Part shown: positions 61,863 through 64,000 of the stretch, one piece after another | Layout of the letters: every line of letters begins with the position of its first letter | How positions within the stretch are numbered: position 1 is the stretch's first letter | The notes under the pieces: model-generated | What the model was told of the DNA's origin: nothing | Databases searched by the model: none | What the model saw: only the letters and a program-made list of their open reading frames with translations | Assembly: GCF_900009145.1 (NCBI RefSeq) | Contig: NZ_LN889796.1 | Location: 217,609-281,608, forward strand | Source: Planktothrix tepida PCC 9214 | Lineage (GTDB): Bacteria > Cyanobacteriota > Cyanobacteriia > Cyanobacteriales > Microcoleaceae | Length of the DNA stretch: 64,000 nucleotides | Direction of reading: 5' to 3' | Program-made: the position numbers and the translations under genes

Positions 61863-62840
61863 ATGAATGACAAACAGCTTCAAGAAGAAGCAAAAAGCTA
61901 TATTAAGACCCTTTTTAATGCCAACACAGATAGTTTATTAGAATTAGCAAAACTCATCGGAATTGACCTGACAAAAGATTTAGTGGGTATTGATTTAAAG
62001 GGTCTTAATTTGGCAAAAACTGACTTAAGAAATGTTAACCTGAGTCAAGCCAACTTAAGTCGCGTTAACCTAACTGAAGCCAACCTCAGTCAAGCCAACT
62101 TAAGCCAAGCGAATTTAAGTGGTGTTAACTTAATGGGAGCCAACTTAGAGAATGCAAATTTAAGTGGAGCCAACCTCAGTAACTCTAATCTCATTCACAC
62201 CAATTTAAAAGCAGCAAACCTCAGAGAAGCAGACTTGAGTGAAGCTTATCTCAGCTACACAAATCTGAGTGGCGCAGACTTAAGTAAAGCTTACCTCAGT
62301 GGAGTCTATTTAGGAAATGCCAATTTAATCGAAACTGACCTGAATCAAGTTTATTTAAGTCAAGCCAACTTAAAAGGAGTCAACCTAAGTGGACTTAATC
62401 TCAGTGAAGCTTATTTTATGGGAGCAAATCTCAGTGAAGCTGATTTAAGTTATGCGGATTTAAGTGGAGCCAACCTCAGTCGAGCCAACTTAAATAAAAC
62501 AAATTTGATGGGAGCGAACTTAAGCGGAACTAACTTGATGGGAGCGAATTTAAGTGAAGCCAACTTAACGAAAATAAATTTAGTGGAAAGTAATATTAGC
62601 CGAGCAAACTTAACGAGAGCAAATTTGTTTCAAGCGAATTTAAGTTTGGCTAATTTGTGTTTTGCCTCTCTAAATCTCGCTAATTTAAGTCTCACGAACT
62701 TGAGTGGAGCTATTGTTAAAAAGACTCAATTTAGATCGAACCTAGGGATTTCACCAGAAGCCAAGAATGATCTCATTAGTAGGGGTGCAATTTTTGATGA
62801 TTATATTGGCAATAGCTTCAACACTTTAAACCCTCGGTAA
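61863..62840 (+). CDS. Pentapeptide-repeat protein
   Basis: 325 residues. After ~40 helical residues (LQEEAKSYIKTLFNANTDSL), about fifty A(N/D)LSx pentapeptides run to residue ~295 (ANLSQANLSGVNLMGANLEN and similar), predicted to form a right-handed quadrilateral beta-helix. The C-terminus (DLISRGAIFDDYIGN) is a cap. Some repeats carry Tyr or Phe instead of Asn at the second position (AYLS, VYLG). Some family members mimic DNA, but most, like this, have no known role. No membrane segment. Confidence 0.92.
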   Translation: MNDKQLQEEAKSYIKTLFNANTDSLLELAKLIGIDLTKDLVGIDLKGLNLAKTDLRNVNLSQANLSRVNLTEANLSQANLSQANLSGVNLMGANLENANLSGANLSNSNLIHTNLKAANLREADLSEAYLSYTNLSGADLSKAYLSGVYLGNANLIETDLNQVYLSQANLKGVNLSGLNLSEAYFMGANLSEADLSYADLSGANLSRANLNKTNLMGANLSGTNLMGANLSEANLTKINLVESNISRANLTRANLFQANLSLANLCFASLNLANLSLTNLSGAIVKKTQFRSNLGISPEAKNDLISRGAIFDDYIGNSFNTLNPR

Positions 62841-63084
62841 GAGTTGTAATTTTCTATCCAAACTATTTATTAAAGCTTAAAGGAAATCCTACAATTACTT
62901 ATTTCTAAAGATAGAACACGGCTATTGCAGGGGAAAATTAAAATCGGGCTGAAACCTTTAGTCTGAAAGAATTTCTGTTTTTAAATCCCAGAGAAATACG
63001 TTAGAACTCAGAGCAAATTTCAACTTTACCCTTGCAACTTTAAAAACGATGTGTTAACGTCATAGTCAAATATGGCGAAGAAGT

Positions 63085-63218
63085 CAGCCGAGTCTTGCTG
63101 TTGACTACCGATAGTCAGCAAGAGCGGGGGAACCAAATTTTTGGGGCTAATCTCTTTTGATAAATAATAAAGAGAAGGGTATCTCTCAACCCCAGCCCGT
63201 CAGCTAACTCCGTAGGCA
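63085..63218 (+). promoter_or_regulatory. c-di-AMP (ydaO-yuaA) riboswitch
   Basis: The aptamer signature is present in order: GCCGAGTC at the start, a CTTGCTG/CAGCAAG hairpin, AGCGGGGGAACCAAA, a GGGGCTAAT segment with a CTCTTT/AAAGAG stem, GGGTATCTCTCAACCCC, then AGCCCGTCAGCTAAC and TCCGTAGGC, closing the outer stem with GCC. These blocks match the class that senses cyclic di-AMP. It ends ~110 bases before the permease start at 63328, room for an expression platform. Confidence 0.82.
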
Positions 63219-63327
63219 TTGGGAGGAGACTGAAACAGTCAGAATTATTCATAATCTGACGAGATTCAGTGTTCCAGGCCAGTATCTTTTTCTTCGCATT
63301 CACTGACCTAGACTCTGAGGAAAATTA

Positions 63328-64000
63328 ATGTTCTTACAATTGAATCTTGCGACTCTCGCAGTCGCTGGACAGATGGCGTGGAAAAAAACCAAGCCCATCT
63401 TATTTCGGGATACGTTTCTATTACCAACGTTAGGATTTTTAGGGGTAATTTTTCTATGGTGGTTTGCGGCAACATTCCTCACAGACTTAATGCCAACCCC
63501 TTTAGAAGCCTTAATCGATAGCCGAGAATATGCTAATCCTTTTTTCAGAAAAGGGCCGGGTAATTTAGGATTAGGTTGGCTATTAATTGCCAGTTTACGC
63601 CGAGTGATCTTAGGGTTTTTATTAGGGGCTGTGGTGGCAATTCCATTAGGGTTTTTAATTGGAATGTCACGCCCTGCATTTTTAGCGTTAAATCCTTTAG
63701 TTCAAATTTTTAAACCTGTTTCTCCTTTGGCGTGGTTGCCCATTGCGTTAGCCATTTTTAACTTAGCTGAACCCTCCGCCATTTTTGTGATTTTTATTAC
63801 GTCTTTATGGCCGACTATTATCAATACAGCACTAGGAGTTGCCAGCGTTAATCCTGATTATTTAGATGTAGCCAGAGTGTTAGAAATGCCTCAATGGAAA
63901 CGAGTGATTAAAATCATTTTACCCGCCAGTTTACCTTATATTTTTACCGGATTAAGGATTAGTTTAGGGATTGCTTGGTTAGTGATTGTAGCGGTGGAAA
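63328..64000 (+). CDS. NrtB/CmpB/SsuC-type ABC transporter permease, 3' end outside the window
   Basis: About 224 codons are present from the ATG at 63328 (GAGG ~8 bases upstream); the frame is still open at base 64000. It shows NrtB-type sequence: LLPTLGFLGVIFLWWFAATF (helix 1), LIASLRRVILGFLLGAVVAI, FKPVSPLAWLPIALAIF, then DYLDVARVLEMPQWKR and LPASLPYIFTGLRISLGIAW (the EAA loop contacting the ATPase). NrtB-like permeases import nitrate, bicarbonate, cyanate or sulfonates. The c-di-AMP riboswitch upstream could tie it to the carbon or osmotic state. Confidence 0.88.
   Translation, partial: MFLQLNLATLAVAGQMAWKKTKPILFRDTFLLPTLGFLGVIFLWWFAATFLTDLMPTPLEALIDSREYANPFFRKGPGNLGLGWLLIASLRRVILGFLLGAVVAIPLGFLIGMSRPAFLALNPLVQIFKPVSPLAWLPIALAIFNLAEPSAIFVIFITSLWPTIINTALGVASVNPDYLDVARVLEMPQWKRVIKIILPASLPYIFTGLRISLGIAWLVIVAVE

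Follow-up and report, generated by a model that had tools for sequence, protein, structure and literature searches.

A predicted c-di-AMP riboswitch recurs before operons for a distinct clade of NrtABCD/CmpABCD-like ABC importers in cyanobacteria

A c-di-AMP (ydaO/yuaA) riboswitch aptamer lies in the 5′ leader of an ABC importer operon in Planktothrix tepida PCC 9214, and the same pairing of riboswitch and operon recurs in related cyanobacteria. Few c-di-AMP targets have been described in cyanobacteria, and this importer lineage is rarely found without such a riboswitch. The riboswitch itself is ordinary; the identity of the importer is the interesting part. The reading that we favor, to which we give a probability of about three in four, is that the operon encodes a c-di-AMP-regulated ABC importer of a separate NrtABCD/CmpABCD lineage, which carries an anion or osmolyte and belongs to an ion-homeostasis regulon.

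A riboswitch aptamer and conserved leader before a three-gene operon

The window analyzed here is a stretch of 64,000 nt from contig NZ_LN889796.1 (positions 217,609 to 281,608; assembly GCF_900009145.1). When the entire window was searched with cmscan, RF00379 was the sole Rfam 15 model that gave a match over threshold, and this model was covered from end to end (model positions 1–134; Table 1). A first-pass annotation of the sequence had placed the conserved blocks of a ydaO-yuaA aptamer 110 bases before an ABC permease gene. Indeed, the 3′ strand of the P1 stem closes at 63218, 110 bases from the ATG at 63328, whereas the RF00379 model as a whole ends 94 bases before this codon on the same strand.

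Table 1. Features of the leader, the importer operon, and its surroundings, in window coordinates
Feature	Coordinates	Strand	Basis or remark
c-di-AMP (ydaO/yuaA) riboswitch aptamer RF00379	63076..63233	+	82.2 bits vs gathering cut-off 38, E 1.4e-17
Hairpin A:B, presumed expression platform	63225..63274	+	RNAalifold and pair counts, 32 leaders
Second hairpin C:D behind the aptamer	63277..63308	+	Paired in 94.3% of cells, 32 leaders
Shine-Dalgarno-like GAGG before the ATG	63317..63320	+	By eye
NrtB/CmpB-type ABC permease, 280 aa	63328..64170 (past window end 64000; L003:937-1779)	+	
NrtA/CmpA-like SBP, 468 aa	64212-65618 (L003:1821-3227), outside window	+	
ATPase, 282 aa	65636-66484 (L003:3245-4093), outside window	+	
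cdaA	68462-69361 (L003:6071-6970), outside window	-	About 2 kb behind the ATPase gene of the operon

To assess base-pairing through evolution, homologous leaders were compared. We chose 34 that are <85% identical to one another and aligned 32 of them, leaving out L204 and L217. The 26 Rfam base-pairs mapped from the window are occupied by standard pairs in 93.9% of the cells of this alignment. Two-sided changes at these pairs number 57, as compared with 17.4 ± 3.2 in shuffles, none of which (0/500) reached this count, and with 2 to 15 two-sided cells in slid controls. The first-pass annotation had named a lack of covarying stems as the result that would speak against its proposal; because the aptamer pairs covary in the 32 leaders, this objection falls away. 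At the outermost position of P1, 20 of the 25 rows with letters there show no pairing, possibly as a result of poor alignment at the 5′ end. The element resembles the RF00379 class in its sequence, its stems, and its position in a 5′ leader, and no difference in the aptamer was noted. Judged by its sequence, it is a c-di-AMP riboswitch of a known class, for which ligand binding is predicted. Just 5′ of the leader, positions 61863-62840 (+) encode a long protein with pentapeptide-like repeats, the repeat type being assigned by eye.

The region between the aptamer and the start codon also carries conserved structure. Strands A and B are paired in 92.4% of cells among the 32 leaders, and the A:B and C:D hairpins taken together show 24 two-sided changes against 10.3 ± 2.5 in shuffles. 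In most relatives, strand C can alternatively pair with strand B (90.6% of cells), wherein three two-sided changes are found against 1.4 in shuffles (75/500 as high) and the covariation score, equaled in 33 of 500 shuffles, is not clearly above them. In the window itself, just four of the seven B:C pairs are possible as read by eye. We offer competition between B:C and A:B as an idea only. No intrinsic terminator was found on the + strand of the window leader. Among 72 leaders, terminator-like hairpins number 58 versus 45 after mononucleotide shuffling at −6 kcal/mol and 17 versus 25 at −9 kcal/mol, and this slight excess at one threshold and deficit at the other therefore give no clear terminator signal. 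The window leader has an unremarkable folding energy (z −0.46 and −1.43).

A covariance model was built from the 32 leaders. It gives 106 bits for the window, which was part of the training set, and 167.7 bits for a leader from outside that set, which precedes a reduced ABC operon in L105. Its scores on the other eight matches, from 10 sources searched, are at most 49.2 bits. The region behind the aptamer may thus be particular to the ABC operon.

The operon comprises genes for a permease, a periplasmic substrate-binding protein (SBP), and a single ATPase, all in the same orientation and separated by 41 and 17 bases. The permease gene is cut by the end of the window, and the rest of the operon was read from contig L003, to whose coordinates 62391 is added to obtain those of the window. 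Extension past 64000, as the first-pass annotation had proposed, revealed the binding protein and the ATPase 3′ of the permease. The annotation had called the permease anion-type; by its match to TIGR01183 (238 bits, cut-off 209) it is an NrtB-type permease. The ATPase likewise passes TIGR01184 (365.6 bits, cut-off 291.8; residues 45–274 covered), and the SBP is a member of PF13379 (208.9 bits) with an N-terminus that appears by eye to be twin-arginine/lipobox-like. Among PDB entries, the SBP best matches the SBP-like domain of the NrtC and CmpC chains (E about 1e-65), followed by CmpA (7.4e-48) and then NrtA (1.5e-43). Together, the three genes form a predicted ABC importer operon that belongs to the nitrate/bicarbonate superfamily.

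Recurrence of the pairing among cyanobacteria

We sought RF00379 in 386 cyanobacterial genomes; 93 of them contain matches, at 141 places in total, and all but two of these matches exceed the cut-off. A search of the same sample with the SBP (E ≤ 1e-90) gave 57 matches in 56 genomes, which divide into 54 orthologs (≥67% identity) and three paralogs (40–45%). For 49 of the 54 orthologs, a same-strand RF00379 match lies 946 to 1271 bases upstream of the SBP gene, that is, before the permease gene; 48 of these matches are over the cut-off and one (G233, 29.5 bits) is under it. In G039 and G008 the operon is split by contig ends, the riboswitch and permease being on one contig and the SBP gene ending another, and in G070 the contig begins close to the leader. 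The orthologs in G064 and G048 have no RF00379 match upstream. The same is true of the three paralogs, and cmscan of L146 and L151 likewise gave no match. These two contigs carry paralogous permease-SBP-ATPase operons in which a second SBP-like domain stands behind the ATPase or is fused to it.

At the level of genomes, RF00379 is present in all 54 that have the operon and in 39 of the 332 others (Fisher p 6e-41, a value uncorrected for kinship). A second sample, which overlaps with the first, consisted of 80 named loci out of 241 relatives, of which 79 were searchable. By coordinates, the riboswitch is in place in 72 of the 79, at 75 to 146 bases from the permease gene. The contig handles used for this comparison are not tied to accessions, and the 72 loci passed a sequence-motif check; two extra coordinates for L155 belong to other contigs. 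When the eight remaining named loci were examined by cmscan, the riboswitch was found to adjoin the permease gene in L156 and L199 and to precede it by 1.3 kb in L187 and by 2.4 kb in L180. No riboswitch was found in L154, L182, L174, or L194; contig ends truncate L174 and L194, and a single short motif persists before the permease gene in L154. Thus, the comparison with related genomes that the first-pass annotation had suggested reveals a recurrent pairing. In the literature that we found, no c-di-AMP riboswitch is described in front of this importer operon; the association may appear among the genes listed in Nelson 2013 and Block 2010.

Binding-site signature and candidate cargoes

Nitrate is held in NrtA by Trp102, Gln155, His196, Gly240, and Lys269, according to the available portion of PMC13204499, and K269 and H196 are also given in that of PMC8786288. 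After manual transfer of the NrtA numbering (offset +29 to the 2g29 chain), the equivalent positions were compared in 142 distinct rows. The importer SBP has Trp, Asn, Tyr, Ala, and Arg at these positions (WNYAR) in 108 of 108 rows, each representing one locus and at least 420 aa, with some genomes present under two handles. Four of the five nitrate contacts of NrtA are therefore replaced, and identically so in every row. The remaining signatures are WNHGK (24 rows, comprising NrtC/CmpC-type domains and two paralogs), WQHGK (five NrtA rows, two of them the same gene), WNQGE (four CmpA rows, two of them the same gene), and WNGSK (one row, the remaining paralog). A tree of 59 rows, in which one fixed and 24 randomly drawn members of the 108 were combined with the 34 others, unites the WNYAR rows in one clade with support of 100/100 and places the three paralogs as its sister. 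Under midpoint rooting, and with a program warning of long branches elsewhere in the tree, the closer relatives of this clade are the NrtC/CmpC-type domains rather than NrtA or CmpA. The SBP thus forms a separate clade with its own pocket signature.

The importer shares with NrtABCD the permease and ATPase models and the SBP family PF13379. It departs from that system in its pocket (WNYAR rather than WQHGK), its gene order of permease-SBP-ATPase, its c-di-AMP riboswitch leader, and its separate clade, and its single ATPase of 282 aa is unfused, whereas that of NrtC is joined to a regulatory domain of SBP-like type. With CmpABCD (BCT1) it likewise shares the superfamily, the SBP aligning to CmpA (2i48) over residues 35–458. 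In this case the differences include the lack of a CmpC-type fusion and the presence of Arg at the Lys269 position, where CmpA has an acidic residue (Glu in 4/4 rows). CmpA is described as taking bicarbonate together with calcium (available text of PMC8786288). The importer thus falls within the oxyanion superfamily and yet, judged by its pocket and its architecture, is neither of the known importers. This suggests that TIGR01183 and TIGR01184, the nitrate models matched by these genes, bear names that would mislead on its substrate.

The first-pass annotation had proposed a nitrate- or bicarbonate-like importer under c-di-AMP control, with a possible link to carbon uptake through SbtB. Were the operon to encode a nitrate/nitrite or bicarbonate importer, c-di-AMP would gate nitrogen or carbon uptake, and such a function would agree with the two TIGR models passed, with the ranking of NrtC/CmpC chains, CmpA, and NrtA among PDB structures, and with retention of the Trp102 equivalent and of a basic residue (Arg) at the Lys269 position. 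We consider this unlikely, given the four contacts changed in 108/108 rows, the separate SBP clade, and the one ATPase gene in place of NrtC plus NrtD. Moreover, separate operons of the nrt and cmp types are present on contig C26, whereas the only two RF00379 matches of the genome are on C40 and C44 with neither operon nearby. The NrtA-type operon is adjoined by an ORF that we take from its sequence to be nirA-like, and no such ORF is among those listed around the riboswitch operon. Control by NtcA was rejected, as no GTA-N8-TAC box occurs in L001 and NtcA-like boxes are not enriched upstream of the operon (10/72 leaders versus 172/1440 random windows). The superfamily assignment of the first-pass annotation therefore stands and its nitrate or bicarbonate cargo does not find support, and with that cargo the proposed carbon/SbtB link loses its support as well.

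A somewhat better case, although one that we still regard as doubtful, can be made for an organic osmolyte or a taurine-like sulfonate, wherein the usual import of osmolytes under c-di-AMP would be performed by an unusual protein family. Sulfonate and taurine models do match (the SBP to TIGR01728, the permease to TauC/SsuC models), all below cut-off, and NrtT of Xanthomonas is described as binding alkanesulfonates (available text of PMC5623697). In addition, osmoprotectant synthesis and transport are given as cyanobacterial targets of c-di-AMP riboswitches in the available portions of PMC5986932 and PMC4284465, which cite Nelson 2013. Against a sulfonate, the SBP scores far better with the NrtC/CmpC/CmpA/NrtA group than with sulfonate-binding models. 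A further alternative is that riboswitch and operon are neighbors by accident or as a relic, with the importer free of riboswitch control. RF00379 matches do precede apparent remnants of the operon, broken or fused, in G129, G174, G278, and weakly G320 (L074, L088, L105, L018), so aptamers may outlive their genes; among these loci the G129 match (29.9 bits) and the L074 match are under the cut-off, and the L018 piece is weak (tblastn E 2e-4). The in-register spacing in 49/54 orthologs and 72/79 named loci makes such an explanation very improbable.

Companions of the riboswitch and a proposed regulon

The other RF00379 match of the genome (C44:5583-5732, 77.1 bits) lies before the gene for a CPA2-type antiporter that includes a Usp domain; an ArsB/CitMHS-family transporter is encoded two genes further on. 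Among the 386 genomes, we labeled 92 other riboswitches by the longest ORF starting within 900 bases, a rule by which a small gene may be skipped. Usp-like proteins of about 220 aa follow 38 of the 92; a relative from L156 scores 30.7 bits with the Usp model (cut-off 24) and matches all 38 at 42–65% identity. ArsB-family transporters follow another 32, at 63–78% identity to the one in L157. Four riboswitches precede CPA2-like antiporters, two of which are just 23% identical to the one in the Planktothrix genome, and four precede glycosyltransferase-like proteins (L114:2361-3638 (-), L029, L095, and L108; one was tested against Pfam). Smaller groups are SBP/ATPase remnants (3/92), the permease at contig ends (2/92), and proteins that resemble the ExoD family, as judged by comparison with L158 (2/92), and there are seven single cases, one of them without an ORF of 80 aa.

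Similar genes surround the importer operon itself. A second riboswitch follows 16 of the 54 ABC operons, and the neighbors encoded on the operon's strand in the 80 named loci (of 241 relatives) include the permease in at least 76, the ATPase in at least 79, Usp-like proteins in at least 50, and ArsB-family transporters in at least 30, these counts being lower bounds from flanks of at most 4.5 kb. The company of the operon therefore looks ionic or osmotic, which is the usual field of c-di-AMP riboswitches. The ArsB family found here presumably includes the product of slr0753 from Synechocystis. In that organism, a c-di-AMP riboswitch is described as regulating slr0753 as a putative chloride efflux gene (available text of PMC10117731 and PMC9896922). 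The likeness is that of a cyanobacterial c-di-AMP riboswitch placed before an anion-type transporter (PMC10117731, in the portion available), although slr0753 encodes a secondary transporter for putative chloride efflux and the operon described here an ABC importer.

We infer a mechanism for the importer that extends to ligand binding, the direction and level of control, transport, and the kind of substrate. c-di-AMP made by the cell's diadenylate cyclase would be bound by the aptamer, and the conserved two-hairpin region that leads to the start codon would then alter expression of the operon. Precedent in this riboswitch class is that ligand binding probably lowers expression, and thus the cell would produce the importer at low c-di-AMP. 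It would carry a small anion or anionic osmolyte for ion and turgor balance, alongside the Usp-like proteins and ArsB-family transporters; such a cargo is most likely, rather than nitrate or bicarbonate. The same polarity for the switches of an importer and of a putative chloride exporter makes no simple sense. If the substrate is an anion, then osmotic control by c-di-AMP would extend from cations and osmolytes to anion import.

The ArsB-family and Usp-like partners are often encoded beside the operon and often stand under c-di-AMP riboswitches of their own. As a tentative extension of the favored reading, a dedicated anion importer of a third NrtA/CmpA lineage, an ArsB-family transporter (probably of the slr0753 type), and a Usp-like partner might together form a cyanobacterial anion-and-turgor module. 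c-di-AMP would then set potassium and also its counter-anion.

One diadenylate cyclase (DAC) gene was found in the P. tepida genome (Table 1), and DAC genes are also present in 18 of 18 other genomes checked. Proximity of cdaA to the operon is seen again in G465; in the other 17 of the 18 genomes the gene is on a different contig or more than 100 kb away, and linkage as a general rule was rejected.

Two further riboswitch loci (L259:5726-5866 (-) and L260:4503-4643 (-); RF00379, 82 bits) have no ORF of 80 aa close behind; the two genomes share, at 93% likeness, a stretch of 519 bases in which a short ORF is possible. Elsewhere, a gene for a P-type cation ATPase (L027:1969-3147 (+)) is preceded by a c-di-AMP riboswitch.
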